Source: Desulfosarcina sp. BuS5
GTDB lineage: Bacteria > Desulfobacterota > Desulfobacteria > Desulfobacterales > BuS5
Reading direction: 5' to 3'
Length of the DNA stretch: 64,000 nucleotides
Assembly: GCF_028752835.1 (NCBI RefSeq)
Contig: NZ_CP087952.1
Span: 1,593,041 to 1,657,040 of the forward strand
Shown: in pieces, positions 22,070-54,318 of the stretch
How the letters are laid out: each line of letters begins with the position of its first letter
Position numbering within the stretch: the first letter of the stretch is position 1
Program-made: the position numbers and the translations under genes
Notes under the pieces: generated by a model
What the model was told of the DNA's origin: nothing
The model's input: only the letters and a program-made list of their open reading frames with translations
The model's database searches: none

Positions 22070-22823
22070 GTGCCAAGATAAATCCGAATCGTTGGGATAA
22101 GACACAAGGTCTTTGAAACTCGATATTGTTACCAAGTGGGTGCTCGGGAAACGGTTTGTTTCCTTCATCTCTGCAGGGCTTGCTCTGGCATTGATGTTAA
22201 GATAGTCCCACCTGACTAAAGACTAACCAGCAGGTCAGTAGCGAAGTCCACAGGTAAACCCGGTAACGGGAGTCTGGAGCTGGACGGAGCAAGATTGCAG
22301 GCTCTGTATTGAGCCCCGAAAAATGTATGGTTGTGGTCATTGTGATAATCCTGCTTGCAGGAAAAAGCCGACGCTTTGGAGACAGCGGAAGGCAGCAGTC
22401 CTGAATATGCTAAGGCAAGTATTCAGGACACCACCGGGGTCTTAGACCAGGGCATGTACTCAAAGGGGTAGCTCGGGAACTTGGGAGACCCGGATGTTTC
22501 CTTGGGTAAAAAGAACGGTAACAGGAAATCCAGCGCAAGCGAAATCCCGGCGTTGCATAGGAATGTCCCGCCTTGCAACGAGTCTGCCATTGGCAGAAAC
22601 ACAAACATTAAAAGATGGGCGATACAAGGTATCAGGGGAGGATAGCGAAGAGCGAACGAACCTGAGATAAACATTCGGAAGTCTTAGCAGATCATAGTAC
22701 CGATGATTAAGAATTGAACTATCTTGATCGGAAAGGTGGGGAAGTGATGCCCAAGCGACCCACTGCAGGGAAGGTGAAGCAGGGTATAACGTTTTTTTGG
22801 CAGGAATTATGGGAGATACACAG

Positions 22824-24182
22824 ATGTCACAAACCATATCAACAAAAAGCCGAGAAATTGCAAGAACGGTCGCTTGCAATTCCAGACCGATAGAATGGGG
22901 ACAACCACCGGTGTTAACAGGTGGGTCATCCCTTATCAAAATCGAGCTGCTTGCTCAAAGTAATCCTGAACTGGTATTTACATCAGTAGTCCATCGGATA
23001 GACTTTGATTTACTGAAACAATCCTTTCGTAAAATTCGGAAAAGCAAATCTGCAGGAGTGGACAAGGTTACGGCAAAGGAGTATGCCGAAAATCTTGATC
23101 AAAACCTCTATAATCTGTATGAACGACTGCGGAGAGGACAGTACGTTGCGTCTCCTGTAAAGCGTATCTGGATAGACAAGGAAGGAGGGAAAAAGCGTCC
23201 AATTGGCATACCTGTACTTGAGGATAAAATTGTCCAGAAAGCAGCAGCAGCCATATTGAATGTCATATTTGACAGGAATTTTTACAATTTTTCCCATGCA
23301 TTCAGAAAAGGTCGGAGCCAACACATGGCAATCAAAGATTTACGTGAGCAATGCTTGAAGCAGAATATCAGCTGGATAGTAAGCGCAGATATTACAGGAC
23401 TATTTGACAATATTAATCACGAGTTACTTAAAGACATGATACGTCGGAGAGTAAGTGACGGCGGAATGATTCGCCTGATAGGGAAGTGGTTGAATGCAGG
23501 CGTAATGGAGGAAGGCAACCTGACGTACTCTGAAACGGGCACTCCACAGGGAGGAGTAATTTCCCCTGTGCTCAGTAATATCTTTCTTCATTATGTTTTA
23601 GATGACTGGTACGTGAAAGAAGTGATCCCCCGGATGAAAGGGAGATGCTCCATCATACGCTGGGCGGATGATTTCATCCTCGGGTTCGAGTATGAAAAAG
23701 ACGCATTGCGTGTCATGGATGTATTACCCAGGCGGTTCGAACAGTTCGAGCTGTCACTTCACCCGGAAAAGACAAAACTGATTCGATTTTCCAAACGCAT
23801 TAGCGGAAAGGGAAACGGGACGTTTGATTTTTTAGGGTTTACATTTTACTGGTCAAAATCATTAAAAGGGTACATGGTAATAAAGAAAAAGACGGCAAGA
23901 AAGCGTTCAAGCCGTTTTATGAAGAGAATATGGATATGGTGCAAGGATAACCGTCATAAGCCAATGGCCGAGCAGTATGAGATTCTTTGCAGTAAACTGC
24001 GAGGTTTTTACCAGTACTTTGGAGTAATAAGTAACTACAAAGTGCTGGAAGTTGTGTTTGAATATACTGAGAAAGCATGGCGTCGATGGTTAAGCCGAAG
24101 AAGTCACAAGGGCGAAGTAATGTTCGAGGACTTGCGCACAACATACCCACTGCCATTACCCAGAATAGTCCATAATATTTGA
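22824..24182 (+). CDS. ltrA: Group II intron reverse transcriptase/maturase
   Basis: Intron-encoded protein that helps splicing and copies the intron into DNA. RT motifs: KSAGVDKVT, KEGGKKRPIGIPVLEDKIVQ, SHAFRKGRSQH, WIVSADITGLFDNINHELL, GTPQGGVISPVLSNIFLHYV (exactly 20 residues) and the catalytic IIRWADDFILG, a WADD form of the usual YADD. An X/maturase domain follows (FLGFTFYWSKSLKGYMVIKK). No HNH endonuclease domain is seen after it. The ATG at 22824 has GGGAG eight bases before; an ATG at 22809 is an alternative. Confidence 0.93.
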   Translation: MSQTISTKSREIARTVACNSRPIEWGQPPVLTGGSSLIKIELLAQSNPELVFTSVVHRIDFDLLKQSFRKIRKSKSAGVDKVTAKEYAENLDQNLYNLYERLRRGQYVASPVKRIWIDKEGGKKRPIGIPVLEDKIVQKAAAAILNVIFDRNFYNFSHAFRKGRSQHMAIKDLREQCLKQNISWIVSADITGLFDNINHELLKDMIRRRVSDGGMIRLIGKWLNAGVMEEGNLTYSETGTPQGGVISPVLSNIFLHYVLDDWYVKEVIPRMKGRCSIIRWADDFILGFEYEKDALRVMDVLPRRFEQFELSLHPEKTKLIRFSKRISGKGNGTFDFLGFTFYWSKSLKGYMVIKKKTARKRSSRFMKRIWIWCKDNRHKPMAEQYEILCSKLRGFYQYFGVISNYKVLEVVFEYTEKAWRRWLSRRSHKGEVMFEDLRTTYPLPLPRIVHNI

Positions 24183-24263
24183 TGCCGTAAGGGCTGCAAA
24201 GTTATACGCCAAACGGGGTGTCGCCTGTTTGGTTGATAATCCGGTAAAAAGGATTTGAACCGA

Positions 24264-24331
24264 GGAACCGTATGAGGGAAATCTTCACGTACGGGTCTGT
24301 AGGGGGGGCGTCGGGTAACCGATGCTCCTAC
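24264..24331 (+). ncRNA. Group II intron domains V and VI
   Basis: GGAACCGTATGAGGGAAATC followed by TTCACGTACGGGTCT is the catalytic domain V hairpin. GGGCGTCGG-GTAA-CCGATGCTCC then forms domain VI with a probable bulged branch-point A. These place the 3' splice site near CTAC at 24328-24331. Confidence 0.8.
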
Positions 24332-25170
24332 CTGGAGTTGAACTCTTTACCCAAAACATCAATTAAAATTTTTGATCCACGGGACTTGTCGATTTTGAAC
24401 AGCACATACATTTCAGCCTTGAAAACCCATGTCCAAAACTTGTCTTTGTTTTCCTTATGGCCGGTTTCATCGACATTTACTGCTTCCTCGAAAGGTAAAC
24501 GATTGAGCAATTCACTGTATGGCGCTTCCAGGGACTGACTTACTTTTTCAATTACTTTTCGCAGATATCCACGGGAAACATTTTCTCCAAGGACGTCTCG
24601 GATAAATTTTCTGATTGTGGAAAACGATGCATGACAGACATTTTTCATATAGGCAACCAAGGCTGTCAAGCGCTCTTTGAAGAGCCCTTCCTTGACTATA
24701 TTAGCAGGAAAAGGCATGTAATGAATTTGCTGACATTTCTCGCACCATACCGGATACGAACGATGTTCTTCTTTGATTATCGGCAGCTCCGGCAGTTCCA
24801 TTTGTTGGATAATACGAGGAGGCGCATCAATTATATGAACTTCCCCATCGCATACAGGGCAAACAGTTAGTATGTATGGATGAGTTTTGTTTATCTCATC
24901 CTCGGTGAAGGGAGTACGAAGATGCCTCTCATGTCCGGGTTGGCCTCCGATCTTACGATTTCCTTCTTTTTGATTTTTTGGCTTTGTGATCTCATCAGAA
25001 GAAGGGCGTTTGCTGGAATTAGATGAGTTTTTTGAAAGCTTGGCAACCTTGACCTCCAAAGCCTTTATCTGCTCTTCCTGAAATTCAATAGTATTGCTTA
25101 AATCACACAGGATTTTGACCGTAACTTTCAGCCCGGCATTATACAAAGCCAATGCTTCATCATGCGTCAT
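24332..25170 (-). pseudogene. IS66 transposase TnpC, N-terminal part (exon 1)
   Basis: The N-terminal leucine-zipper and zinc-finger part of an IS66 transposase: a coiled segment FQEEQIKALEVKVAKLSKNSS, SNSSKRPSSDE, GGQPGHERHLR, Cys pairs CPVCDGE and CEKCQ, and the first catalytic aspartate in NVDETGHKENKDKFWTWVF (cited in pieces under 20 residues each where possible). It ends KILIDVLGKEFN at the intron. Its start overlaps the end of the DUF4338 gene by 11 bases. Confidence 0.88.
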
Positions 25171-28243: not shown

Positions 28244-29467
28244 ATGAACACGACAGAGAATTCCACTTTCCGCCATGCTTTTTTATTTTACTAAAATGTA
28301 AAGATAAAATCAAGAAAGTGATGCAATGCCTAAAACTTCGATAGGTTTTCTCTGTTTTTAAAATATTTTTTTTTAAAAAAGGGGATTCAAATATGAAAAT
28401 TCTATGTTCTTTTTGTTTGTTTAGCGTTTTTAATCTTATTTTACTGCTTCCTTTAAGCTGGGCAGAGGAAAAAATTACAAAACTGGAAGATGTGGTTGTG
28501 ACTGCAACCAAATACAAGACTTCTGTAAAGGATGTTCCGGCTTCCATTACAGTAATCACATCAAAAGAAATCGAAAATCAAAACATGCCCAACGGGGATA
28601 TAGGAGATGTGGTACGTTCGGTTCCCGGCATTACTTTGCGCCGTGCATACGGGCCTTTTCCCGCTTATCCCAATATCCGTGGCGCCGGCAGTGGAGCAAC
28701 GGTTGTCCTGGTTAACGGGATCCCTACAAACTGGGAAATCACCCAGGCCATACCGCCTGAAAACATAGAAAGGATCGAAATAATTCGCGGCCCGGCTTCA
28801 GCCCTTTACGGCGCTAATGCCAGCGGCGGCGTTATCAATGTTATAATAAAAGAAGGAAAAGATGAGTTTGAAAACAGTGTCAGCGCCGGTTACGGCACCT
28901 TTGATACGTATCGGTTAAATGCTTATTTTGGCGGGCGTGCAGATAAATTCGGTTATTCGCTTGCGGCATCTTATGAAGATTCCGATGGTGACAAGGTTGT
29001 GCCTAATAATATCATTTCGAGTATCCATATGATAGATACCTGCGATTATGACAAGCATGCTTTTTCGATAAATACGGATTATAGATTTACCGACATATCC
29101 AAAATATCGATTCTGTATAATTTTTTTCATGATGAATATACACGAGGCCGCCCCAATCACGGAGGTGACTGGGACCGACATTTTGCCAGCATCATTTATG
29201 ATCAGGCCATAGGTGAACGGTTTGATTTTAAAGGTTCCATAGGATACCGTTATGATGATCTACTGCACCTTTATGACAAGGGTGGAACCAACTATGCCAA
29301 AAACCGGAAACGGTATACCGATTATTATGAAATGCCTGCAGAATTACAGTTAACCGGTGATGTAGGCTGGGGGCACACACTTACAGGCGGTTATTTTTAT
29401 AACAAGCAAAAAACGGATCAGGACTATTTTGACTGGAATACAGGGACTCCCTGGCGGGAAAATAAAT

Positions 29468-31019
29468 CTCGATGATCAAGTTTTTATGATTAGCTAAATT
29501 TTAAGCTTGAGAGTATAATCACGGCCATTGAAAAATATTAATAATTTTGAAAGAGTCCATTCATAATGCTATTAACTGAATCTGCACCATTTATCAAACA
29601 GTACATTGAAGATCTCAACAATAGCCTGGAGCAATACAAACCTGGTGCGGGATTAACATTTACCCAGAAAGCATGGCTAAGCTTTTGTCTTACCGGTATA
29701 TTAATGGTAAATGCTGTATGTTGGGCAAAATTTGAACGGGCGAGTCTGGGCAATTATAAATTAGCAGCTCTATCTTGGATGTTTCGTAAGGGTAAGATTT
29801 CATGGGACAATTTACTTGTTGGAAGCGTCAGGCGTATTTTGAAAAAATATGGTATCACAAATGGTGTAATTGTTTTTGATGAGTCTGATCGTGCCCGTTC
29901 TAAGAATACAAAGCGAATATACAAGGCTCATAAGCAAAAACACAAAGCAAGCGGAGGTTATGTTAATGGGCAAACAGTTGTTTTGCTTCTTTTGGTCACA
30001 GACTCTATAACCGTACCTATTGGTTTTAAGTTTTACATGCCTGATCCAGTTGTTAGTGCCTGGAAAAAAGAAGAAGAGAGATTGAAAAAAAAGGGACTCC
30101 CGAAGAGTAAGCGTCCTGTCAAACCAGCATTTAACCCTGAGTATCCGAAAAAAATTCAATTAGCCCTGCTCTTACTTGAGAATTTTAAAAAATATTATCC
30201 TAAAATTACTGTTAAATGTGTATTGGCTGACGCTTTATACGGTTCAAAAGAATTTATGAATGGAGCCTCTAATATTTTGGGAGGAGTGCAAATTATCAGC
30301 CAATTAAAGTCAAATCAAAATATACGATACAAAGGTAAAAAAAAGACAATTACGGATTATTTCAACATGATTAACAAAGGTGTAAATTGCACCATTCGTG
30401 TGCGAGGCGGTGAAAAAGTCAATGCAACAGTGAGCAGTGCCCGCCTTAAGGTTGATGCACACGATGGCAATGTGCTTTTTGTGATAGCTCTTAAATATGA
30501 AGGGGAAGATGAATACCGTTACTTAGCTGCCACTGATGTGAGTTGGCGCACAGTTGACATTATTCAAGCATATTCTTTGAGATGGCTTGTAGAGGTTTTT
30601 TTTGAAGACTGGAAGCTTTATGAAGGATGGGGACAAGAGGCCAAACAATATGACGAAGAAGGATCAAGCCGAGGCCTGATCTTGAGTCTGTTGCTAGACC
30701 ATTGCCTCCTCCTTCACCCTGAGCAGGAGGCCTGCATAGAGAACAAAACTCCCGTGTTTACCGTGGGAAGTCTGCAAAGAAAAACTCAAATGGATGTTTT
30801 GATGGAATGTGTCAAATCTTTGCTGCAACAACAAGATCCCGGTGAAAAACTTAAAGAAATGGGCCAAGTTATCAAAAAAGTTTTCCGACTTATGCCATCG
30901 GGAAAACATATGAGCGGAAGAACTATAGGTAGATTGGGGCCAACACCTTCTCTATCACGTAAATATTGTCCTTGCTAAGTGCTTTTGGCAAGTTCATCAT
31001 CAAAAACTTGAACATCGAG
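29468..31019 (+). mobile_element. IS4-superfamily insertion sequence in TonB receptor 1
   Basis: The element is 1552 bp. Ends CTCGATGATCAAGTTTTT and the reverse complement of AAAAACTTGAACATCGAG are inverted repeats with one mismatch. It is flanked by 5-bp direct repeats TAAAT (29463-29467 and 31020-31024). It carries one intact transposase gene, so it may still be active. Confidence 0.93.
29566..30978 (+). CDS. IS4-superfamily transposase
   Basis: DDE transposase of 470 residues. Acidic residues appear in IVFDESDRARSKN and CVLADALYGSKEF, and the third region carries a clear YREK motif: Y-SL-R-WLV-E-VFFEDW-K within YSLRWLVEVFFEDWK. The frame is intact between the element's terminal repeats. 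Its presence splits a TonB receptor and may have a polar effect on the ABC importer genes downstream, unless the element supplies outward transcription. Confidence 0.92.
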   Translation: MLLTESAPFIKQYIEDLNNSLEQYKPGAGLTFTQKAWLSFCLTGILMVNAVCWAKFERASLGNYKLAALSWMFRKGKISWDNLLVGSVRRILKKYGITNGVIVFDESDRARSKNTKRIYKAHKQKHKASGGYVNGQTVVLLLLVTDSITVPIGFKFYMPDPVVSAWKKEEERLKKKGLPKSKRPVKPAFNPEYPKKIQLALLLLENFKKYYPKITVKCVLADALYGSKEFMNGASNILGGVQIISQLKSNQNIRYKGKKKTITDYFNMINKGVNCTIRVRGGEKVNATVSSARLKVDAHDGNVLFVIALKYEGEDEYRYLAATDVSWRTVDIIQAYSLRWLVEVFFEDWKLYEGWGQEAKQYDEEGSSRGLILSLLLDHCLLLHPEQEACIENKTPVFTVGSLQRKTQMDVLMECVKSLLQQQDPGEKLKEMGQVIKKVFRLMPSGKHMSGRTIGRLGPTPSLSRKYCPC

Positions 31020-31956
31020 TAAATATAAAGTGGAGACCCAGGCAGGATACCTGCAGGATGTGTGGAAACCTGTTGAAAAATTAATAATTACCGCAGGTCT
31101 TCGTTATGATCACTGGAAAAATTATGACAATTATTTTAGCAACTTTAATACTCCGAATCCAAAGGACAGGACGGATGATAACTGGAGTCCGAAATTCGGC
31201 ATAAGGTATAATTTTACTGATAAAACCTCTATATGGGGGAATTACAGCGTCGGGTTTAAGCCTCCGTCATCCGCGCAACTCTATGATGATCGAACTTCAG
31301 GCGGAAATCCCAGGGAGGCAAACCCGAATCTTGATCCGGAAGAGACCGAATCGTATGAACTTGGTGTTGAACAATGGTTTGGAGAGAGCCTGCAAACCAG
31401 TATTACAGGTTATTACAGCATCACAGATGACAAGATTGTATCCTGGTTTAATGCTGATAATATTTGGATTAATAAAAATATCGGCCGCGCAAAATCTTAC
31501 GGTGTTGAACTTGATTTTGCTCTTCATATTCTTGAAAACTGGTTGATAAATGCAAATTACACCTGGAACACGGCCAGAATCGACAAGAATTCATCGAATC
31601 CTGACCAAAAAGATAACCGGCTCTCTTTCAGCCCGGAGCATAAAGCCAACCTGGGTATTACTTATGACCGGAAAGATAATTTTACCATAAGTATATTCGG
31701 AAGATATATAGATGACCAATATACCAATAACGACAATACAAAATATACATCCACAGGAGAAAAAAGGTATATGGAAGAGTCTTTTGTTATGGATCTTAAA
31801 GCTGTCAAACATTTCCCGATTTCAAAAGGGTATCTGAAAAACATAGATCTTTCGCTTAGTATAGATAATATTTTTGATGAAAACTACAGGACTTTATATA
31901 TATATGAAGATCCCGGAACAGTATTTTTCGGCGAGGTAAAAATTACTTTTTAAAAT

Positions 31957-40129: not shown

Positions 40130-41893
40130 ATTTTAAAACAAGCTTTTAACATACGGTTTTATTTATCTTTTTTTGTCTTTATAGTGATTGGCGGTCTCTT
40201 TTTATCAACCGCCTTTGCAAAAGAAGCAAAGCAGGTTGAAAAGGATACTGACGGTGACGGGAAGATTGACCGGATCGCGTTTTTTGATGCCAAAGGCAAA
40301 ATTGCAAGGCTTGAAAACGACAGCAATAATGACGGCCTGATGGATCGTTTTCAGTATTATAAGGATGAAATACTGATCCGGCTCGAAAGGGATACTGATT
40401 TTGATCAGAAGATTGACTGTATTGACTATTTTAAAGATGAAAAAAGGATCCGGCAAAAAAAAATTAACGAGTTGGAAAAAGTCTGCCGGATCATCCTGTT
40501 TGATGAAAACGAACAGCCACTTTTGATCAAAAAGGATACCACAGACAGCGGCGGTTTTGACACTATTTATTATTTTGAAAAAGGGAAGCTTGCATCTTCC
40601 ACCAGGGATACGGATGAAAACGGAAAGGTAAATGTCTGGCTAAAATATAAAGACGGCAAGCCGGTAGAGCAAAAGACGGACGCTGATGAAGACGGAAGGC
40701 TTGAAAGAATAGTCATGTATGACCAGGAAGGGCTTCCGGAAAAAAGCAGCCACGACCTTGATATAGACGGGAAAATGGAAACCTTTCGTTTTTATCAAAA
40801 TGGCGAGATCAAAAAACAGCAAAAGGATATCAACCTTGACGGGCTGATCGATTCCGTCACAAATTTTAAAGATTCCCGGCCGATCAATCAGGAAAAGGAT
40901 TCAAACCTTGACGGAAAGTTTGACATCTTCACAACCTTTAAACAAGGCCAAGCTTTTACCCGGAACAAGGATACGAATTTTGACGGTAAAATTGATTATT
41001 TCAGCCGGTTTGATCAGGCCGGCCTGGTTAAAGAGATAAAAGAAGACACAAGGAATTCCGGAAAGATCGACCGGATCAGGTTTTTTAAAAAGGGAGCGCC
41101 TGCCCGGGTGGAATATGATGCCGACGGGGACGGCTTCCTGGAGACTGTTTCGCTTTTTAAAAACGGGAAGCTGTATCTTCAAACAGAAGATAAAAACAGG
41201 GACAAAAAGCCGGATGTCAAAATATTTTTCACCAAAAAAGAAGAAAAGCAAAGGGTTGAGAGCGACACAGACTTAAACGGTAAAACCGACACATGGCAGT
41301 TTTATAAGAATAATAAAATTATTAAACTTGAAAAAGATGAGAACGGAAACGGCATTGTCGATTTAAGGGTCTTTTTTAAAAAAGGTTTAAAGAAAAAACT
41401 GGTTAAAGACAGCGACCATAACGGGTATTTTGAGATAACCGAGTGGTTTGACCGCCCGGAATGGTCTATGGTGATGGAGCAGGATGCAAACCGGGATAAC
41501 AATATTGAAGCCCGCTTTTTTTATAAGGATGGAGTTTTAAGGCTGAAAGAGATCGACGAAGACGGAGACGGCCGTTTAAATTTAAAGGAGCATTACACCA
41601 AAGACGGCAAACTCTTTAAAAGCGAGGAAGACGATGGAGATACCGGCCGGTTGAATATTGTCTGGTATTATGATGATTCGAAAAATCCGGTGCGGGCGGA
41701 AAAGGATAATAAGGGCGATGGCCGGATAGATACGTGGTATTTTTATGATCAGGGAAGGCTTACATCGGTCGAAGAGGATACAAACGGAGACGGTAAGCCG
41801 GATATTTGGGAAGAGTATGATGACGCGGAAGCTCTGGTCAGCCGGAAAAAGGATCTTGATTTTGACGGCCGGCCGGATATGACTGATCAGTAA
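40130..41893 (+). CDS. Exported protein with about 22 tandem 24-residue DxDxDG repeats; probable ATT start
   Basis: Predicted periplasmic or surface calcium-binding-type protein of about 587 residues, built almost wholly of repeats of the form KDTDGDGKIDRIAFFDAKGK: an EF-hand-like DxDxDG loop alternating with an aromatic, MORN-like xFYxxGK strand. Some loops are degenerate. A GTG at 40184 has no ribosome-binding site and would cut the signal peptide. ATT at 40130 follows GGAGGAAGGG by six bases and yields LKQAFNIRFYLSFFVFIVIG with GLFLSTAFA, a textbook signal peptide. ATT is therefore the likelier initiator. The ExbB/ExbD/TonB genes come next. Function unknown. Confidence 0.8.
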   Translation: MLKQAFNIRFYLSFFVFIVIGGLFLSTAFAKEAKQVEKDTDGDGKIDRIAFFDAKGKIARLENDSNNDGLMDRFQYYKDEILIRLERDTDFDQKIDCIDYFKDEKRIRQKKINELEKVCRIILFDENEQPLLIKKDTTDSGGFDTIYYFEKGKLASSTRDTDENGKVNVWLKYKDGKPVEQKTDADEDGRLERIVMYDQEGLPEKSSHDLDIDGKMETFRFYQNGEIKKQQKDINLDGLIDSVTNFKDSRPINQEKDSNLDGKFDIFTTFKQGQAFTRNKDTNFDGKIDYFSRFDQAGLVKEIKEDTRNSGKIDRIRFFKKGAPARVEYDADGDGFLETVSLFKNGKLYLQTEDKNRDKKPDVKIFFTKKEEKQRVESDTDLNGKTDTWQFYKNNKIIKLEKDENGNGIVDLRVFFKKGLKKKLVKDSDHNGYFEITEWFDRPEWSMVMEQDANRDNNIEARFFYKDGVLRLKEIDEDGDGRLNLKEHYTKDGKLFKSEEDDGDTGRLNIVWYYDDSKNPVRAEKDNKGDGRIDTWYFYDQGRLTSVEEDTNGDGKPDIWEEYDDAEALVSRKKDLDFDGRPDMTDQ

Positions 41894-42094: not shown

Positions 42095-42700
42095 ATGTTT
42101 GAGTTTTTATCAAAAGGCGGAGCGCTTGTGGTTCCGATTCTGTTCTGTTCGGTTCTGGCCCTGGCCATATTTTCCGAGCGGATAATCCGTTTTGCAAGGA
42201 TGCGAAGCCGGGGCGCGGGCCTTGCGGAAAAAGTTGCCGGGCTGCTTCTAAACGGGAGTGAACAGGAGGCGCTGAAATCTGCCGGGGAAAGCGATTCTCC
42301 AATGGGGCGTATACTTGTTCAGGCTATTGACGCCGGGAATCTTGATCGTGAAATGCTGGAAACGGTGATTGTTAATACAACCGATGAGGAAGTGAGAAGT
42401 CTTTCATCAGGTATTCAGGCCCTTGCCACAATCGGCAATATCGCGCCGCTTTTAGGTCTGCTCGGGACCGTCATCGGAATGATCAAGGCCTTTATGGTGA
42501 TCCAGCAAATGGGCGGCAAGGTCAATGCGGCGGTTTTGGCAGGCGGCATCTGGGAGGCCATGCTTACCACCGCTCTCGGTCTTGCCGTGGCTTTGCCGGT
42601 CATGGTGGCTCACAGTTATCTTACGGCCAGAGTTGATAAATATGAGGCCAGGCTGCAAAACGGTTCTGTAGTCTTTATGAAAGCCATTACAAGGAAATAG
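42095..42700 (+). CDS. exbB: MotA/TolQ/ExbB proton channel family protein
   Basis: Inner-membrane proton-channel subunit that energises TonB. The 201-residue protein has three membrane segments; the conserved core is ATIGNIAPLLGLLGTVIGMI and GGIWEAMLTTALGLAVALPV. AAGGAAAG precedes the ATG. exbD follows after 9 bases, then a GxxExxY insertion and tonB. Clustering with receptors identifies it as ExbB rather than TolQ. Confidence 0.92.
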   Translation: MFEFLSKGGALVVPILFCSVLALAIFSERIIRFARMRSRGAGLAEKVAGLLLNGSEQEALKSAGESDSPMGRILVQAIDAGNLDREMLETVIVNTTDEEVRSLSSGIQALATIGNIAPLLGLLGTVIGMIKAFMVIQQMGGKVNAAVLAGGIWEAMLTTALGLAVALPVMVAHSYLTARVDKYEARLQNGSVVFMKAITRK

Positions 42701-42709
42701 GAGGCCGGA

Positions 42710-43117
42710 ATGCTGGTTCACAGAAAAAAAAGGGACCGCTATCAGATGCAGGCTCCGCTTACTTCTTTGATAGATATTGTTTTTATGCTGCTTATCTATT
42801 TTTTGCTGACAACCAGCTTTATGGTGGATGAGGGCATCAAGATCAAACTTCCCCAGGCAAAGGCCGCCGCGCCACAGACGCAGCAGGAGATTACGGTTTA
42901 TGTGGATCGGGAAGGACGCGCTTTTTTAGAGAACAAAGAGGTTCCGCAGGAGATGCTATTTAAAAGGCTGAAGGAAATGATCGGCGGGCAGCAAGACCGG
43001 CTGGTGGTGGTGAAGGCTGACCGGTCGGTGGTATTAAACAAGGCGGTCAAGGTTATGGATCTTGCCAAGGCTGCCGGCGCTGCAAGATTGTGTTTGGCTA
43101 CTGAAAAGGATTTTTAA
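42710..43117 (+). CDS. exbD: Biopolymer transport protein ExbD
   Basis: ExbD of 135 residues with one N-terminal membrane segment. LTSLIDIVFMLLIYFLLTTS carries the essential Asp within the helix (LIDIVF), followed by a periplasmic domain ending LAKAAGAARLCLATEKDF. It forms the proton-driven motor with ExbB. GGAGG precedes the start. Gene order exbB-exbD fits TonB systems. Confidence 0.93.
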   Translation: MLVHRKKRDRYQMQAPLTSLIDIVFMLLIYFLLTTSFMVDEGIKIKLPQAKAAAPQTQQEITVYVDREGRAFLENKEVPQEMLFKRLKEMIGGQQDRLVVVKADRSVVLNKAVKVMDLAKAAGAARLCLATEKDF

Positions 43118-43585: not shown

Positions 43586-43627
43586 AATCCGTGTAATCCG
43601 CGTCTAAAAAAAATGAAATCCGTGTCT
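43582..43627. repeat. AATCCGTGT repeat, copy 3, overlapping the tonB start
   Basis: GTGAAATCCGTGTAATCCGC followed by GTCT, then a second GAAATCCGTGTCT unit. It begins in the GxxExxY stop region and supplies the first codons of the tonB reading frame as read from 43613. Confidence 0.8.
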
Positions 43628-44302
43628 AAAAACAAAAAAAAAACCAACAGGCTAATGCAGTCCATGATCGGCATCTCCCTGGTTATTCATATAGCGCTGT
43701 TCATGCATATTGCCGGGATATATCGATCCAACGCTCTAACCTGTATAGAACTGGCAATGCGCGATATTTCAAAACCGTTCAGCAGAGCAATCCCAAGACC
43801 CAGGATAAGGCATCATGCCCCGAAAGTCAGGAATGTTAAAAAGCTGAGCATTCAAAAGCGGCTTGTTCCACGCATAAAAATCGATCCGGTTAAAAACAGC
43901 CTTGTAAATACGCTCATGGAAAATATCAGCGCGCCCGACATCCCCGACAATGCCGGCCCCAGCATTTCAGACTGGAACCCCGGCTGGAATCCAGGCGGAT
44001 CCGAGGAGTTTGTAACATCAAACGACTATTTTGACATGGTGAGACTTAAAATAGAAAGCTGCAAAAAATATCCTGAATCCGCCAAATCAAAACATATTGA
44101 AGGAAGAGTTATGATTCGGTTTGTGATCGCAGCAAACGGACAGATATCGTCCTTAAAAATCGTAAAACAAGCAAGACACAGCAGCCTCGGCACTGCGGCC
44201 CTGGATGCGGTGAAAAAAGCGGCCCCCTTTCCAAGGCCGCCGCCGAACCTGTTTAAAGAGCCGCTTAATGTTGAAATAACCATTTTGTTTGAGTTGACGT
44301 AA
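43613..44302 (+). CDS. tonB: Energy transducer TonB
   Basis: Couples the ExbBD motor to outer-membrane receptors. The 229-residue protein has one N-terminal membrane anchor (MQSMIGISLVIHIALFMHIA), a basic Pro-containing linker (RAIPRPRIRHHAPKVR) and a C-terminal TonB domain (YPESAKSKHIEGRVMIRFVI; ALDAVKKAAPFPRPPP). The ATG at 43613 is inside the AATCCGTG repeat and lacks a ribosome-binding site. ATG at 43655, just before the anchor, is the probable ancestral start. Insertion of the GxxExxY cassette may thus have altered expression. Confidence 0.9.
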   Translation: MKSVSKNKKKTNRLMQSMIGISLVIHIALFMHIAGIYRSNALTCIELAMRDISKPFSRAIPRPRIRHHAPKVRNVKKLSIQKRLVPRIKIDPVKNSLVNTLMENISAPDIPDNAGPSISDWNPGWNPGGSEEFVTSNDYFDMVRLKIESCKKYPESAKSKHIEGRVMIRFVIAANGQISSLKIVKQARHSSLGTAALDAVKKAAPFPRPPPNLFKEPLNVEITILFELT

Positions 44303-44567: not shown

Positions 44568-46658
44568 ATGAAGAAGAGACTTAAGATCGGATATCCATAT
44601 TTAGCTATTTTATTCATAACTGTTCTCATTCCATGCCTAACCCATGCCCAGGAAGAAAAAAAGGCGGTCAGGCTCGAACAGATAACCGTAACAGCGCCGG
44701 GAGAAAAGGAGGGTATTACAATAACACCCCAAAGCACAATTGTACATGTGGAAAAGTACAAAACACCCGGCACTCCGCAAAATATCGTCGATATCTTAAA
44801 AGACCGGGCCATAATAGATTTTCGCGGAAGCAGCGATCTGGTTGAAACAAACGACAATGTCTATATGCGGGGATTTGACACTCGCGGCTTTGTGACTGCT
44901 ACGGATGGTTTATCCGTTGAAAAAGTCGGCGGATATAAGGGCGGACATTTTGTAGATTTCTCCACTATCCCGTTCGGACAGATAGAGAGTGTCGAGATAA
45001 TTTCCGGGCCTCATTCAGCGCTCTATTCAAGCAGGGCTCTCGGAGGGGTGCTTAACATAAAAACCAGGACCCCGAAAAGATGTGAAACATTGAAACCGAA
45101 TTTTAAGGTGATGACAAGCTATCGCTCATATAACACCCAGACCCACCGATTTAATGTAGATGGCGGGGCAGACTCATTTATTTATGATTTTTCATATGAA
45201 AAGTATCGTACCAATGGTTATCTCAGGAACAACAGAGCTGATATAGATACAGTATCCGGACGGTTTGGTTATATTCTTCCTTCTGATGGATACATCAGTC
45301 TGAATGTAACTTATCAGGACGCAAAACGTGAACGACCAATAAATAACGATCCAAAAGGAAAATACAAAGACTATTATGACGGAAGTTATCCCAGAACCGA
45401 ATCCGGCTCCAATCCACTGGATGAACCCCGGCGCGATAAAGAACCGTATTCTTTTCGATTAAACATTAAGCAGCCCACCACTATCGGCGAATGGAAGATA
45501 GGAGCATATTATAGTCATGAGGATCAGATATATCATTACGAGCAAGGGGAGAAATGGCGCTATAAAACGGAATGGAATTCATACGGCACAAATATTCAAA
45601 ATGAGTTCCGGCTTTTCGAAGATCATCTAGTAACTGTGGGATTTGACTTTATGCAGCTTCGCTATGGATGGGAAAAAATGGATGAAAGTTATGCAGGATT
45701 CATCCAGGACAGATGGAATATCATACCGAGGCTTACCCTGACCGCCGGTCTCAGGTATGAGGATATCAACATCTGGTGGAACAATAAAAATTATAAAACA
45801 GGTAAGTACTGCAATCCGGCAATACAAAAAGACGAAATAAGAAAAGGTTATCATCAATTTGTCCCAAAATCTTTTCTTACATATGAACTTGATGATTTAT
45901 CTGATCTATTAAGAGATACTTCCATATCCGCAGGTGTCAGCAGGATATGGACTCCAAAGTCCTATTGCCAGATCTGAAGTTGGGGATCAGGGGTCGAGGT
46001 CGATTCCATACACGGCATTGGATATGATTTAGTGCTTACAAGAAGAATCTGGAAAGACATCAGCTTGAAGGTCGATTATTCCCATTATGAAATAAAAGAT
46101 TACGTGGTTTCTGCTGACGGAAGCAGCGACTATTACAAAAATTCTCCCTGGGGCCGCAGAAAGATCAATCTTGATAAAGTTATCAAGGAAGGCGTTGAGG
46201 TGGAACTGAATGGACATATTATCGATCCACTCTCGTTCTATGTCAGTTATGCTTATAATTATTGGAGATATAGAGGCCCAAGTACGGGACCTGCGGGGGT
46301 TGCGGGTGAAAAACTGGGAGATCGGGCCAAAAACAGGGTTAATGCAGGGCTTCGGTATAATCTTTTTGAAAAAACACTGCTCCTTTTGGATTATAAATTT
46401 CAGGATGAACAGATTGCTGAAGTATGCGAGGAAAATCCACCCGGCTCAGATTTCTGGGATTGTTACGACAATCAGATGGCGGCCTCTCACGTATTCGATT
46501 TTGCCATAGAACAGACACTTGTCAAAAAGTACGGTTTTATCAAAGATGCGGTTCTAAAAGTCTATGTGAATAACCTTTTTGATGAAGAGTATGAAAACAG
46601 TCGCGGATACCCGATGACCGACTGCATTTGCGGCGCTGCCTTAAGTTTCAGTTTTTAA
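44568..46658 (+). pseudogene. TonB-dependent outer-membrane receptor 2, interrupted by an in-frame TGA
   Basis: Receptor of about 696 codons. AAAGGAG precedes MKKRLKIGYPYLAILFITVL, a signal peptide ending THAQ. A TonB-box-like EQITVTAPG follows, then a plug with YMRGFDTRGFVTATDGL and barrel strands to ALSFSF with terminal Phe. A TGA at 45975 interrupts the barrel (SRIWTPKSYCQI*SWGSG), and the same frame continues to 46658. The sequence around the stop does not match the usual family spacing well, suggesting local damage. A premature end inside the barrel would abolish function unless read through. Confidence 0.85.
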
Positions 46659-46682: not shown

Positions 46683-46711
46683 CCGATTTTAATTACATAA
46701 AGGAGATCTGC

Positions 46712-47629
46712 ATGAATAATTTTTTTAGGTGCAAAAGAATATGGATCAGTATTGTCGTAATTATGCTGTTTATCTCTATGGATGAATTTATCCAAGACGC
46801 CGGCGCTGCAAATCGAAACAGGACACAGTTCTACCTGGTCAGCACAGGCAACGGTGATCCGGATAATATTACCCTGAGGGCAGTCAATACAATAAAGGAT
46901 TCCGACATTATTTTTTGCAGCAAAAGGACACGCGACAAATTCCCCGTTCTTTTGCAGGGCAAGGAAATTCACGATCCGGGATTCGGACTTTTCGCCATAT
47001 ACGGAAAAAAGCCCGAAGAAGCAAAAAAGAGCAAACGGTTTAATTATGAAGAAAAAATAAAGCAGCTCAACCAGATCACAAGAATCATCCGAAATGGAAT
47101 AAAAGAAGGGAAGGTTGTATCTGTTCTCTGCAGCGGCGACCCCACAATTTACGGGCCGAATATGTGGTACCTGGAAGCGTTTGAAGATCTTGACCCTGAG
47201 GTTATTGCCGGTGTCAGTTGCTTTAATGCGGCCAATGCCGCTTTACGCAAAGGGGTTACTTCAGGAGTAAAGGCGCATTCGGTTATCCTTACTGCCGCGT
47301 TTGGACGTAAGGAATATATCGGCCTGGACAGCATTGAAAAACTTGCGCAGAACCAGGCGACCATGGTTTTTTTTACAATGTTCCTGGATCTGAAAAAAGT
47401 AGTAAAAAAATTAAAGACTCATTACCCAAAGGATACACCCGTAGCGATTGTGCTCTTTGCGGGTTACAAAGACAAGCAGAAAATTATCAGGGCTACCCTT
47501 GGTACGATCCTGGAAAAAACCAGGGGGGAAAAACTTCCATTCGAACATCTGATCTATGTTGGAGATTTTTTAACAAACCGATATGACAAAACTAATAAAG
47601 GAAATAATTCTGAAAAATCACTTAAATAA
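46712..47629 (+). CDS. Tetrapyrrole-methylase-fold protein with N-terminal signal peptide
   Basis: A 305-residue member of the corrin/porphyrin methylase superfamily (CobA/CbiF type). FYLVSTGNGDPDNITLRAV is the N-terminal SAM-loop motif (usually VGxGPGDPxLLTLKA); VLCSGDPTIYGPNMWYLEAF and VIAGVSCFNAANAALRKGVT are the second and third motifs. Unlike normal family members it begins with a basic n-region and a hydrophobic core (RCKRIWISIVVIMLFIS) ending near AGAA, a Sec signal peptide. Export would separate it from cytosolic SAM. It follows TonB receptor 2 and has a broken paralogue at 49101. AAGGAG precedes the ATG. Confidence 0.85.
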   Translation: MNNFFRCKRIWISIVVIMLFISMDEFIQDAGAANRNRTQFYLVSTGNGDPDNITLRAVNTIKDSDIIFCSKRTRDKFPVLLQGKEIHDPGFGLFAIYGKKPEEAKKSKRFNYEEKIKQLNQITRIIRNGIKEGKVVSVLCSGDPTIYGPNMWYLEAFEDLDPEVIAGVSCFNAANAALRKGVTSGVKAHSVILTAAFGRKEYIGLDSIEKLAQNQATMVFFTMFLDLKKVVKKLKTHYPKDTPVAIVLFAGYKDKQKIIRATLGTILEKTRGEKLPFEHLIYVGDFLTNRYDKTNKGNNSEKSLK

Positions 47630-49058
47630 CCATAACCTGACGAGAGAGATCGGTCTTTTTTCAGCAATAATCATAGTGGTTGCCAACATAATCGGCACCG
47701 GGATATTTACCACCTCCGGTTTTATAATGGAAGAACTCGGCAGCCCTCAGACCATGCTTCTTTGCTGGCTGGTCGGGGGGCTTTTTGCTCTCTCCGGCGC
47801 CCTTTGCTATGGAGAACTCGGCGCCATGTTTCCAAAGGCAGGCGGAGAATACATTTTTTTGCGGGAAAGTTATGGTAAAGGCATGGCCTTTCTCTCCGGT
47901 TGGATATCTCTGATCGTGGGATTCTCAGCCCCGATTGCCGCCGCGGCCATTGCCTTTGCCACCTATCTTTTGCGCGCCCTGCCGGTCTCGTTCAGTTTTA
48001 AAACCGCGGTTTCCCTGGGGGGGATAGATATCATTATAATATCGCCGGTTACCATATTGGCTGCGGCAATTATTATTATCCTTTCCCTGGTTCATTATCA
48101 CAGCCTCTTATTGGGAACCCGCATCCAGAATGGTTTAACCATTTTTAAAACAACCCTTATCTGCGTCTTTATAATAGCAGGATTCTGTTTTGGCAGCGGT
48201 TCAGCCGCCAACCTGTCAGGGGAACTGAACCTGGGCTCGATCTTTTCCGACAGCTTTGCCGTCTCCCTGATCTACATCTCCTTTGCTTACAGCGGCTGGA
48301 ACGTAGTCGCTTATCTCGGTGGAGAGATCAAAGACCCCGGCAGAAATATTCCCCTTTCTCTTTTTGCCGGCACGTTTCTGGTGCTGGGTCTTTATCTTCT
48401 CTTGAATATGGTCTATATCTACGCCCTTCCTGTAAAAGAGATGAGCGGGGTTCTGGAAGTGGGGAAAACAGCGGCGGTTTCATTATTCGGGAATAATATC
48501 AGCAGATATTTTGCAGCAGCGATTGCCATCGGCATTCTATCCGCTGTCAGCGCCATGATCATGACCGGCCCGCGGGTCTATTACGCCATGTCAAAAGACG
48601 GGGTATTCTTTAAGCTTTTCGGCAAAATAGACAGTATTCACAAAACACCGGCGTATTCCATTTTCCTGCAGGCGACGCTTGCCATTATCATGGTTGTCAC
48701 CTCCGCGTTTGATAAACTGCTTTTATACATCGGTTTTACCCTGGCGGTTTTTGCCATGCTGACAGTAGCCGGAATGATAGCGCTCAGGATAAAAAAACCT
48801 TCCCTGGAGCGCAGATACAAAACATTCGGGTATCCCTTTACACCGTTTTTCTTTATCCTGGGCAACCTGTGGATTATCTTTTTTTCGATCAAGGAAAAGC
48901 CTGTTGTCTCTCTCTTCGGCCTGGGAACAATAGGGCTCGGCGGATTAATTTACTTATATTTCAAAAAAAGCGGCGGCACTATCCATACCGGTATCCACGT
49001 CGGCAGAAATCGAATGAAGATAATTGCAATATGCAGGGAGGTGATAGAAAAAAACTGA
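47583..49058 (+). CDS. APC-superfamily amino acid permease
   Basis: Inner-membrane transporter of up to 491 residues with about twelve hydrophobic segments. The family start is IGLFSAIIIVVANIIGTGIF, with the GSPQTML and GGEYIFLRESYG loops and SFAYSGWNVVAYLGGEIKDP in segment 6. The ATG at 47583 overlaps the methylase-like gene by 47 bases; a later start nearer LTREIG is possible. It lies between the two exported methylase-like genes. The substrate is unknown; histidine or another metal-chelating amino acid would fit the nickel theme but is speculation. Confidence 0.87.
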   Translation: MTKLIKEIILKNHLNNHNLTREIGLFSAIIIVVANIIGTGIFTTSGFIMEELGSPQTMLLCWLVGGLFALSGALCYGELGAMFPKAGGEYIFLRESYGKGMAFLSGWISLIVGFSAPIAAAAIAFATYLLRALPVSFSFKTAVSLGGIDIIIISPVTILAAAIIIILSLVHYHSLLLGTRIQNGLTIFKTTLICVFIIAGFCFGSGSAANLSGELNLGSIFSDSFAVSLIYISFAYSGWNVVAYLGGEIKDPGRNIPLSLFAGTFLVLGLYLLLNMVYIYALPVKEMSGVLEVGKTAAVSLFGNNISRYFAAAIAIGILSAVSAMIMTGPRVYYAMSKDGVFFKLFGKIDSIHKTPAYSIFLQATLAIIMVVTSAFDKLLLYIGFTLAVFAMLTVAGMIALRIKKPSLERRYKTFGYPFTPFFFILGNLWIIFFSIKEKPVVSLFGLGTIGLGGLIYLYFKKSGGTIHTGIHVGRNRMKIIAICREVIEKN

Positions 49059-49100
49059 TAAAATAATAATATCCTTAAGTTAAGAAAGGAGAAAATACTT

Positions 49101-49970
49101 ATGTTGAACACCTATAAAAAAGAGATTCATGTTCGGACAGGATTACCGGCAATTATAATTTTTCTCTTAATGATGTTTTTTGTTTTTCAACTCGGCATTG
49201 TGAGTGATGCTTATGGAGCAAAAGGAAAATCGGTTTTCCATCTTGTAAGCGTTGGGGTCGGCGATATCGACCTGATCACCGTGCGGGCGATAGATACGAT
49301 AAAAAATTCGGATGTAATCGTATGCAGGGAAAAGACAAAGGAAAAATTTGCCCGGTATCTTAAAAGAAAGGAGTTTATAGATAGCTCCAGGGGCCGGCAC
49401 TATTCTAAAAAAAACCGTTTAAAACTGACGGATAAAGAGAAAAAAGCAAGGTTGGAAGAAAGGCGAAAAATGCGGGAGAAACTTGTCTCCCGGATTCGCT
49501 TGTAGATTGCCAGGGGGAAAACGATTGCGGTGCTCGATAGCGGCGATCCCCTTATCTACGGCCCAATGGCCTGGTATCTGGAGGAGTTTAAAGATTTAAA
49601 CCCGGTAGTCATTCCGGGTGTAAGCTGTTTTAATGCGGCAAATGCGGCCTTGCGCAAGTGTATAACTTCAGGGGAGAAAATTCATTCCGTTGTTTTAACC
49701 TCAAGACGCGACATAGAAAAGATGTCAGGTCACCAGCCCACCATGGTTATTTTTACAATGGGGAGTAAATTCAAGGATATTATAAAGAGACTTAAGGAGG
49801 TTTATCCGTTAATGACGCCGGTAGCCATCGTAGTCCATGCCGGATATAAGGAAAAAGAAGAGGTGATCAGGGGAACGTTAAAGAACATTGCGGAGAAAGT
49901 TGACGATGAAAAGCTTCCCTTTGAACATCTGATCTATGTGGGCGATTTTCTTACATATCGCCGTAAGTAA
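49101..49970 (+). pseudogene. Second exported tetrapyrrole-methylase-fold protein, interrupted by TAG
   Basis: Paralogue of the 46712 gene. AAAGGAG precedes MLNTYKKEIHVRTGLPAIII, a signal peptide ending DAYGA. Then come FHLVSVGVGDIDLITVRAI, and after a TAG at 49503 the same frame continues IARGKTIAVLDSGDPLIYGP and VIPGVSCFNAANAALRKC. The stop falls in a helix where the paralogue reads RIIRNGIKEG. The rest of the frame is clean, so the nonsense mutation is recent, or the gene is read through. The split coding pieces would be 49101-49505 and 49530-49970. Confidence 0.85.
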
Positions 49971-50041: not shown

Positions 50042-50563
50042 ATGAAAAAGATTTCCTGTTCATTAATGCTGTTTTTTCTGGTTTCCGCCGGTTGCGCACC
50101 GATAATCTCCAGGCAACTTAGAAGAGAGGCATCAAGAGATATAACCTTTAAAGAGGTTATTAAAAATTCGAAAACTTATAAAGGGAAGGTAGTCCTTTTA
50201 AGCGGGGTAATTCTCGACTCCAAAAACAGAAAGGAAGGAACCCTGATCGAGATGCTTCAAAAACCGGCGGATATGGAAGGAAGGCCGAAGGACGTTGATG
50301 AATCTAAGGGAAGGTTTCTGGCGTTATACGATGGATACCTGGATACAGCTATATACAGCCGGGGAAGGGAGGCGATTGTTGCAGGAGAGATCAAGGGAAA
50401 AAGGACGCTTCCTCTTGGTGAGATAGAATATGCATATCCTCTGATCTTGATCAGGGAAATCCATCTCTTTAAGGCCAAAAAAGAGGAAAGATTCCATCCT
50501 TATCCCTATCCTTACTGGTGGTATCCACCATGGGGCTGCTATCCGTACTGGTACCCCTGGTAG
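50042..50563 (+). CDS. Slp-family outer-membrane lipoprotein
   Basis: A 173-residue lipoprotein. MKKISCSLMLFFLVSAGC contains the lipobox SAGC (Cys18). The body has the Slp pattern: TFKEVIKNSKTYKGKVVLLS, GRFLALYDGYLDTAIYS and REAIVAGEIKGKRTLPLGE. The last 20 residues or so are almost all aromatic and proline (YPYPYWWYPPWGCYPYWYPW). Slp proteins are envelope stress or starvation lipoproteins of unclear role. It precedes the NikL-like gene and may share its transcript. Confidence 0.85.
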   Translation: MKKISCSLMLFFLVSAGCAPIISRQLRREASRDITFKEVIKNSKTYKGKVVLLSGVILDSKNRKEGTLIEMLQKPADMEGRPKDVDESKGRFLALYDGYLDTAIYSRGREAIVAGEIKGKRTLPLGEIEYAYPLILIREIHLFKAKKEERFHPYPYPYWWYPPWGCYPYWYPW

Positions 50564-50616
50564 CGGAAAAACAGTGTAAAATTACGAATTACGAATTACG
50601 AATTAAAGGTAATTTT

Positions 50617-51216
50617 CTGATCAGATTAAATACTGCAAATAAAAAGCATACAAGGATACTAAAACTTATTCTTTTTGTTATGCTGTATTTATTCGTAACG
50701 CCTTCCCTGACCATTGCCCACAGGGTATTTCTTACCGCCTACGTGGAGGGAGACGCTGTTTTTGTGGAAGCCGGCTTCAGCGACGGCACACTCTGCAAGC
50801 ACTTTGCGATTGAGGTCTTTGATCCATCAGGCAAGAAACTTTTGGAAGGTAAAACCGATGAAAAAGGCGGGTTTTCTTTCAAACCGCCTCAAAAGACAGA
50901 CTTAAAGATAGCGCTTGACGCGGGTATGGGGCATATGGACGAGTACCTGTTGTCTGCAGATGAACTGCCTGGAATTGCCGCTGAAAGCGCTGAACCCCGG
51001 GGAAAAACGGAAACTGTTGCACGAATAGATTCCAAAGAGATTGAATTAATTGTTGACAGGGTCATACAAAAAAGACTCCATCCTCTTATTCAACTTGTTG
51101 CAAAATCGCAGCGCAAAACAGGAATGTTAGCCACGGAGATATTCGGCGGAATCGGGTATATACTCGGTCTTGCCGGGATTGCTATCTATTTTAAATCCCG
51201 CAAAGGGGACAAGTAG
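50617..51216 (+). CDS. nikL: NikL/CbiL-like nickel transport-associated protein
   Basis: Membrane-anchored periplasmic protein of about 200 residues resembling NikL (CbiL), a component found with NikMNQO-type nickel importers. After a signal-like segment (ILFVMLYLFVTPSLTIA) the mature part would begin HRVFLTAYVEGDAVFVEAGF, followed by VFDPSGKKLLEGKTDEKGGF, a helical region and the C-terminal anchor GGIGYILGLAGIAIYF. The start is unresolved: CTG at 50617 follows AAAGG, while a GTG at 50518 would overlap slp. A degraded second copy of the 3' end lies at 52.8-53.0 kb. The family assignment is the main argument for nickel in this region. Confidence 0.75.
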   Translation: MIRLNTANKKHTRILKLILFVMLYLFVTPSLTIAHRVFLTAYVEGDAVFVEAGFSDGTLCKHFAIEVFDPSGKKLLEGKTDEKGGFSFKPPQKTDLKIALDAGMGHMDEYLLSADELPGIAAESAEPRGKTETVARIDSKEIELIVDRVIQKRLHPLIQLVAKSQRKTGMLATEIFGGIGYILGLAGIAIYFKSRKGDK

Positions 51217-51416: not shown

Positions 51417-51437
51417 TAAATATATAAGGTGGCTATC

Positions 51438-51938
51438 ATGGATGCAGCCGAAGCATTGAGATCTATACGGTTTGATTTGCTTGAATATATTCAGGAAAAA
51501 GTAATTGTAGATTTCGACAATGACGGCAGACTGCCTGTTGAATTTGCCCGCAAAAGAAAAAAACATAATAATAATAAGGTGATCGGTTTTTTCAGAACAC
51601 GGTCAAACCTGCCCATCAATGCCTTTTTGGTAAAAACCGGGGATGAAGAGGTTTATTTCCTCTATTTTCATTTTATGGATAGTATCTCTAGAAGTCCTTT
51701 TAATATCGGCTGTTGGGTTTTGAGTTTCAGGATCTTGCATGATCACGAATTGATGGCCTTATATAGGAGGGAAAGAAAAATGCTGCTTAATATGACCCTT
51801 AAAAGAGTGGTTGATTTTCATGGACATTTGTGTCCCGAGCTTGTAGTCGGAGCAAAGGTATCTGACCCCTTCTTTTTCTCACTTTTTCTTATATTATTGA
51901 CTAATATAAAAAATCACGCTATGTTTGTTATAATTTAA
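51438..51938 (+). pseudogene. FmdE-family protein, copy 1, C-terminally truncated
   Basis: The first 140 residues are nearly identical to the complete fmdE at 53368. They include MDAAEALRSIRFDLLEYIQE and VDFHGHLCPELVVGAKV with the metal-binding-type HGHLCP motif. The match ends at 51859, and the frame runs on into unrelated hydrophobic codons. parDE and a receptor fragment follow. The FmdE C-terminal part and zinc ribbon are lost. Start: AAGGTGG five bases before ATG 51438. Confidence 0.88.
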
Positions 51939-53354: not shown

Positions 53355-53367
53355 TAAGGTGGCTATC

Positions 53368-54318
53368 ATGGATGCAGCCGAAGCATTGAGATCTATACGG
53401 TTTGATTTGCTTGAATATATTCAGGAAAAAGTAATTGTAGATTTCGACAATGACGGCAGACTGCCTGTTGAATTTGCCCGCAAAAGAAAAAAACATAATA
53501 TTAATAAGGTGATCGGTTTTTTCAGAACACGGTCAAACCTGCCCATCAATGCCTTTTTGGTAAAAACCGGGGATGAAGAGGTTTATTTCCTCTATTTTCA
53601 TTTTATGGATAGTATCTCTAGAAGTCCTTTTAATATCGGCTGTTGGGTTTTGAGTTTCAGGATCTTGCATGATCACGAATTGATGGCCTTATACAGGAGG
53701 GAAAGAAAAATGCTGCTTAATATGACCCTTAAAAGAGTGGTTGATTTTCATGGACATTTGTGTCCCGAGCTTGTAGTCGGAGCAAAGGTAAGCGAGTATG
53801 CCCAAAAACTTCTTCCTGGCCGCGGTTTTTCATTAATTGCGGAAAACAGCACGTCCGCAATAGACGCTATCCAGATACTGCTTGGAATTACAATAGGAAA
53901 TCAGCGGCTTAAAGTCATGGACTTTGGCAAACATAACTATACTTTCACGCTAAAAGATAAACAAAAAGCTTTCATGCTCTCTTTGAAAAAGCTTCGATAT
54001 AATGATGGAGACGAATACCGGATACTCTCTAATAAAATCAGAAGTTCAGAGGCGACGATTGATGAAGTCGTGGATTTCCAAAGACTTCTTGACCATCGAA
54101 GCCGGACGTTGCTTGAATTGAACTTTGATGAACTGTTTGATCTAAATGAAGTTGAGTGGAAAAAGGCGTTTGCCGAGATGCCTTCGCTATATTGCACCTG
54201 CCTGAGCTGCGGTCAGGAAGTGCTGGCTGATTTTGCCGTTGAATATCATGATAATCTTTATTGCATGCGGTGCTTTCAGCAGATCAACACCGGATGTGCA
54301 AGATGCAGCCTTCATTGA
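53368..54318 (+). CDS. FmdE-family protein with C-terminal zinc ribbon, complete copy
   Basis: A 316-residue protein named after subunit E of formylmethanofuran dehydrogenase. An N-terminal domain of about 125 residues precedes the FmdE core VDFHGHLCPELVVGAKVSEY and IAENSTSAIDAIQILLGITI, whose His and Cys residues resemble a metal site. The C terminus has CTCLSCGQEVLADFAVEYH and CMRCFQQINTGCARC, a treble-clef/zinc-ribbon pattern. FmdE proteins in non-methanogens are of unknown function, often near metal transport genes. AAGGTGG precedes the ATG. Two CooT-like genes follow within 17 and 41 bases, indicating an operon for metal handling. Confidence 0.9.
   Translation: MDAAEALRSIRFDLLEYIQEKVIVDFDNDGRLPVEFARKRKKHNINKVIGFFRTRSNLPINAFLVKTGDEEVYFLYFHFMDSISRSPFNIGCWVLSFRILHDHELMALYRRERKMLLNMTLKRVVDFHGHLCPELVVGAKVSEYAQKLLPGRGFSLIAENSTSAIDAIQILLGITIGNQRLKVMDFGKHNYTFTLKDKQKAFMLSLKKLRYNDGDEYRILSNKIRSSEATIDEVVDFQRLLDHRSRTLLELNFDELFDLNEVEWKKAFAEMPSLYCTCLSCGQEVLADFAVEYHDNLYCMRCFQQINTGCARCSLH

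Follow-up and report, generated by a model that had tools for sequence, protein, structure and literature searches.

SAM-dependent methylases normally need the cytosol and, to our knowledge, the known members of the tetrapyrrole methylase fold are cytosolic owing to this need for SAM. The locus analyzed here, part of a window of 64,000 nucleotides from Desulfosarcina sp. BuS5 (the whole stretch of DNA under study), raises the question of what two proteins of this fold, encoded at 46712 and 49101, do behind signal-like N-termini and next to a TonB-dependent receptor. An initial annotation had proposed that exported copies were repurposed to bind a tetrapyrrole or metal complex in the periplasm. 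The features of the region are collected in Table 1; L and G numbers designate loci and genomes of the comparison.

Table 1. Features of the window around the two methylase-fold genes (positions in the window).
Feature	Position	Strand	Basis or remark
Second TonB receptor, interrupted by a transposase gene at 29566-30978; downstream Nik/Opp-type ABC genes extend to 37111	28393-31953	+	
Repeat protein, D-x-D-x-DG-like repeats	40184-41893	+	upstream of ExbB also in L038
ExbB-like	42095-42700	+	sequence; same order in L038
ExbD-like	42710-43117	+	sequence; L038, L039
TonB-like	43613-44302	+	sequence; L038, L039
TonB-dependent receptor, predicted selenoprotein (CQIU, TGA 45975-45977)	44568-46658	+	NF049945
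SECIS-like hairpin, 7-bp stem, loop AGGU, 15 nt after first base of TGA	45990-46007	+	
Type A exported TP_methylase-fold protein, 305 aa	46712-47629	+	PF00590, 4.8e-40
APC-family amino-acid permease	47583-49058	+	PF13520, 8.9e-55
Type B exported TP_methylase-fold paralogue, in-frame TAG at 49503-49505	49101-49970	+	PF00590, 8.1e-44
Slp-family outer membrane lipoprotein	50042-50563	+	PF03843
NikL nickel/cobalt ECF transporter subunit	50518-51216	+	NF058648, 160.6 bits, above the cut-off of 100
FmdE-domain protein, HGHLCPE metal-site motif	53359-54318	+	PF02663

The fold assigned initially to both proteins was confirmed by their matches to PF00590, for which scores of 138.2, 150.5 and 116.2 bits were obtained as compared with a Pfam gathering cut-off of 27.8. 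Scores with the CobM/CbiF equivalog model TIGR01465 (125.4, 102.9, and 91.7 bits; cut-off 259.65) and with the SUMT/CobA models NF004790 and TIGR01469 (64-86 bits; cut-offs 198 and 185, respectively) were lower than required, and by these profiles the proteins are PF00590 members lying below the CobM and SUMT cut-offs. The motifs GNGDPDNITLRA and SGDPTIYGP, which had been quoted for both proteins, came in fact from the 46712 protein; the paralogue displayed its own versions, VGVGDIDLITVRA and SGDPLIYGP. Shine-Dalgarno sequences preceded the ATG starts of both genes (AAGGAG at 46700-46705 for 46712 and AAAGGAG at 49085-49091 for 49101). In the second gene, segments 49101-49505 and 49530-49970 form a single frame that is cut by the TAG. 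Pyrrolysine at this codon was rejected, since no PylS above the cut-off occurred in the genome and the orthologues in L033, L034, and L056 presented sense codons at the same position; for these reasons this copy is probably either broken by a lone nonsense change or the product of an assembly error. The proposed pair of signal-bearing paralogues was thus upheld as regards fold and N-termini, but the 49101 gene is not intact.

The 33-45 residues ahead of the PF00590 domain had a Sec-like make-up in both proteins. Their N-termini, MNNFFRCKRIWISIVVIMLFISMDEFIQDAGA in the 46712 protein and MLNTYKKEIHVRTGLPAIIIFLLMMFFVFQLGIVSDAYGA in the 49101 protein, each consisted of a basic, a hydrophobic, and then a small-residue segment, and the predicted Sec signals corresponded to about 46712-46807 and 49101-49220, respectively. 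No Met was present in either protein between the hydrophobic segment and the first strand, so that an ATG start excluding that segment is not possible. Signals were called with a simple n/h/c rule of our own, which is poorly specific, given that shuffled hydrophobic segments passed it in 3-56% of cases; weight was therefore placed on how the signals vary and on the contrast that cytosolic paralogues provide. A search of genome contigs yielded 31 loci. Among the homologues, the rule found signals in 46 of 54 entries, and most of the eight misses were truncated or had a doubtful start. Sec or lipoprotein signals appeared in relatives from a few Planctomycetes and from Desulfobacterota, among them Desulfonema magnum and cable bacteria; several tandem forms carried a lipobox (GVGC, VIGC, or VAGC). 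In contrast, cytosolic paralogues from the same genomes mostly started 1-18 residues ahead of the domain, the remainder having hydrophilic extensions. The n/h/c region recognized in the protein and its homologues points to Sec export, as had been proposed; its conservation in nearly all complete homologues, together with its absence from the cytosolic paralogues, argues for a signal beyond chance and runs counter to the case of homologues starting at a downstream Met without the hydrophobic segment.

An AlphaFold2 model of the 46712 protein obtained with 52 natural sequences (pLDDT 87, pTM 0.82) had as its best solved match the CobM of Clostridium difficile (4e16; Z 23.1, rmsd 2.3 Å over 224 residues, 30% identity), and the best profile match agreed with it (CobM/CbiF). 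The model of a tandem protein reached a pTM of 0.86, as would fit a definite placement of its two domains relative to each other. A single origin of the exported clade was weakly supported (73/46). As to whether the SAM pocket is kept, a question raised in the initial annotation, the alignment indicated that the SAM-side motifs were mostly kept and that substrate-side residues were replaced. Thus, the SGD motif retained Gly in 57 of 57 domains and Asp in 53, and the GxGPGD motif retained Pro in 40 and Asp in 44, this last residue being absent from the L001-type subfamily; the columns of CysG M382 and D248 were variable. The signature YGPxxW was specific to the exported proteins (98%). The catalytic Arg and Glu of SUMT/CobA (R111 and E114 in NirE) were not found, their positions being occupied by Pro and Trp, respectively, each in 56 of 57 domains. 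In NirE, the changes R111K and E114Q reduce activity by 94 and 84%, respectively, and E114Q keeps SAM binding (PMC4731766). The exported branch shares with CobM/CbiF (PF00590, TIGR01465) the fold over most of its length as well as GxGPGD and SGDP, and differs from it by export, by an insert, and by YGPxxW in place of YGxxxE; with SUMT/CobA/CysG/NirE it shares the fold and the SAM-side motifs, but not the Arg and Glu residues.

The family-specific insert comprised about 30 residues and contained paired Cys in many members. Both Cys columns were filled in 28 domains, neither in 29, and a single one in none, although the rows are related, mainly from tandem proteins, and these counts do not represent independent events; the 46712 type lacked the pair. 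Such all-or-none pairing is as expected of an extracytoplasmic disulfide. Separately, either Cys69 or Cys150, never both, was present in 51 of 57 domains; in tandem proteins Cys69 was usual in the first domain and Cys150 nearly constant in the second. In the alignment both adjoin positions of catalytic residues, and they may face the cavity.

The genomic neighborhood was a recurrent operon composed of genes for a TonB receptor, an exported methylase-fold protein (single or tandem), DUF4198/NikK, an APC permease, NikL, CbiM, CbiQ, and CbiO, preceded by ExbB/ExbD/TonB genes in L038 and in the window. Within 6 kb and on the same strand, 25 of 30 loci had a TonB-dependent receptor, 19 NikK, 18 the APC permease, and 11 NikL; other signal-bearing members thus do lie beside TonB receptors, of which only 14 matches were found in the whole 4.2-Mb genome. 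Among the five loci lacking a receptor, two were truncated by contig ends, one was a draft with broken frames, and two belonged to Planctomycetes. This operon points to nickel/cobalt uptake; in the window, the true start of NikL is probably downstream of 50518. The third exported copy of the genome was located shortly outside the window, as part of a second nickel cluster that contained DUF4198, a nucleoside hydrolase-FmdE fusion, and NikL along with a divergent NikK-CbiM-NikL-CbiQ-CbiO set. The fusion, at L001 8216-9736, is itself predicted to be exported. Exported FmdE proteins adjoined several family members, and solved FmdE structures hold Zn or Ni at a His/Cys site (PMC2954224). The family was detected in 34 of 241 genomes of the class, a few of these matches possibly being ordinary CobM, and in 3 of 294 Planctomycetota genomes. 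NikL, NikK-like/DUF4198, CbiM, CbiQ, and CbiO are shared with the NikKLMQO nickel ECF systems, but descriptions of the latter, such as the cable-bacteria nickel survey (PMC11247825), mention neither an exported methylase-fold protein nor this operon. Searches of an open-access collection of incomplete coverage likewise yielded no description of an exported tetrapyrrole methylase branch or of its TonB/nickel operon.

The receptor directly upstream of 46712 is a predicted selenoprotein. Sec receptors are described by the models NF049945 (FCYXU), NF049944 (PUIUD), and NF049947 (PCPU), and the window receptor scored 1142.9 bits with the first (cut-off 825), the TGA being present and corresponding to U470. 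In the column of this codon, five loci had TGA and L036 had Cys; further TGA codons and many Cys codons in the motif CEV[U/C] came from a wider set of receptors. The idea that the TGA marks a pseudogene was rejected, because five loci share it at a column where others have Cys. The 7-bp hairpin with its AGGU loop occurred at the same offset in all five TGA genes, whereas two of its pairs failed in the Cys homologue. For the window sequence, its folding energy by itself did not reach significance (z -0.34), and covariation among six sequences was weak against shuffles, slid controls pairing far worse; the SECIS-like character is therefore put forward because the position and the loop are conserved and because of the codon pattern. 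The genome encoded two tRNA-Sec genes with anticodon TCA (G000:C1:1777000-1782000, L144; and 1988500-1990000, L145) and two SelB genes, one of the tRNA genes adjoining the second full-length SelB. The link extended to other receptor kinds, since seven of ten over-threshold PUIUD receptors of the class, with two TGA codons each, immediately preceded an exported methylase-fold gene (G213, G212, G103, G218, G018, G220, and G241), and a PCPU receptor was directly upstream of a family member in L051, another being about 1 kb away from one in D. magnum; no exported methylase-fold neighbor was found for CU-type Sec receptors. Most receptors without CEV[U/C] displayed DYHGDYNPQG at the same place of the alignment, which suggests that Sec/Cys or His could serve as alternative metal ligands. 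The selenoprotein receptor as such is known, the family already having a name in NCBIfam (NF049945) and a TonB receptor selenoprotein having been reported with deep-Sep in 2025 (PMC12013277). Neither that work nor PMC13188914 connects Sec TonB receptors with nickel or with an exported partner of the methylase fold; what is new is the link to this partner.

The reading that we favor, and hold to be somewhat likelier right than wrong, is that this exported CobM/CbiF-related subfamily acts as the periplasmic soluble partner of the TonB receptor in nickel/cobalt acquisition, some relatives acting as lipoproteins instead of soluble proteins. In the course of events that we infer, from location and ligand to the metal and the order of hand-over, the receptor, often of CxxSec or CxxCys type, would carry a metal complex across the outer membrane, and the exported protein would bind it in its old substrate cavity and perhaps strip or remodel it; the CbiMQO importer would then receive the metal by way of NikK/DUF4198, FmdE, and NikL. 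A narrower version, in which the Sec receptor imports a tetrapyrrole or other chelate of Ni (or Co) and the rewired protein captures it and releases the metal to NikK/FmdE/NikL-CbiMQO, is tentative, with the chances on the whole against it. Of the initial proposal, export and repurposing in a TonB-linked metal system found good support in the signals, the Ni/Co operon, the residue changes, and the Cys-Cys pairs, whereas the tetrapyrrole derives from the fold, and by this analogy is a plausible ligand. As the SAM-side motifs are largely kept, SAM or another nucleotide is possible as well. Some facts fit the favored reading poorly: conservation of GxGPGD and SGDP would be superfluous for a pure chelate binder; since free Ni or Co is what ECF and NikL families import, a chelate is not required; and the TonB/nickel context was absent from both Planctomycete loci examined (L041 and L055). 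Exported CbiK-type chelatases, namely Desulfovibrio CbiK-P and Porphyromonas IhtB, offer a parallel: encoded near uptake genes, they too place a tetrapyrrole-enzyme fold beyond the inner membrane, but their fold is that of a chelatase and not of a methylase. If the favored reading is right, selenocysteine TonB receptors of three kinds would gain a testable substrate class and a partner, and the strongly nickel-dependent sulfate reducers and cable bacteria a possible way to scavenge organically complexed metal; it suggests an enzyme fold repurposed for metal collection.

A variant compatible with the favored reading, which we consider rather doubtful, is that the system imports cobalt or a corrinoid instead of nickel. 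Cobalamin enzymes are the proteins closest to the family in fold, either Co or Ni can be taken up by CbiMQO-type transporters, and in Desulfarculus loci a family member is paired with ABC-type import genes; against this stand the NikL and NikK-type subunits, the Nik/Opp genes nearby, and the riboswitch search, in which none was found near the operon and the sole cobalamin riboswitch detected was not upstream of it.

A genuine periplasmic SAM methyltransferase modifying an imported metallophore or tetrapyrrole would account for the conserved Gly and Asp of SGDP and the frequent Asp of GxGPGD, and SAM might be supplied through the APC permease of the 18 loci, some APC-superfamily permeases being SAM carriers. 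The replacement of the catalytic-region Glu by Trp and of the Arg by Pro, the loss of the GxGPGD Asp in the L001-type subfamily, and the lack of any known SAM pool in the periplasm make it improbable. Unlikely to a similar degree is a role as periplasmic receptors of a metallophore that derives from SAM or contains a nucleoside; the SAM pocket would then hold a nickel chelator by its amino-carboxypropyl or nucleoside moiety. The SAM-side conservation, the exported nucleoside hydrolase-FmdE fusion of the second cluster, and a spermidine-synthase-like gene adjoining L043 agree with it, but no biosynthetic cluster was consistently linked to the family and these extra genes occurred in few loci. 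That the proteins are cytosolic methylases with an untranslated or unused hydrophobic stretch has very little to recommend it beyond the simplicity of the signal rule and its pass rate with shuffled segments, as compared with the missing Met ahead of the domain, the good Shine-Dalgarno sites, the varied signals, lipoboxes included, kept across genera, the Cys pairing, and the lack of signals in cytosolic paralogues.

Some minor observations concern the window and the family. The FmdE-domain gene occurred twice, first truncated (51429-51938) and then as the copy of Table 1, in an apparent duplication about 1.9 kb apart. A group II intron was situated at 22202-24337 of the window, with its reverse transcriptase ORF at 22797-24182. 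Finally, proteins of about 600 aa were encoded at L030 499-2268, G256:C60, and G238:C43; that of L030 began with a signal-like segment, matched the molybdopterin oxidoreductase fold weakly, and ended in a methylase-fold domain.
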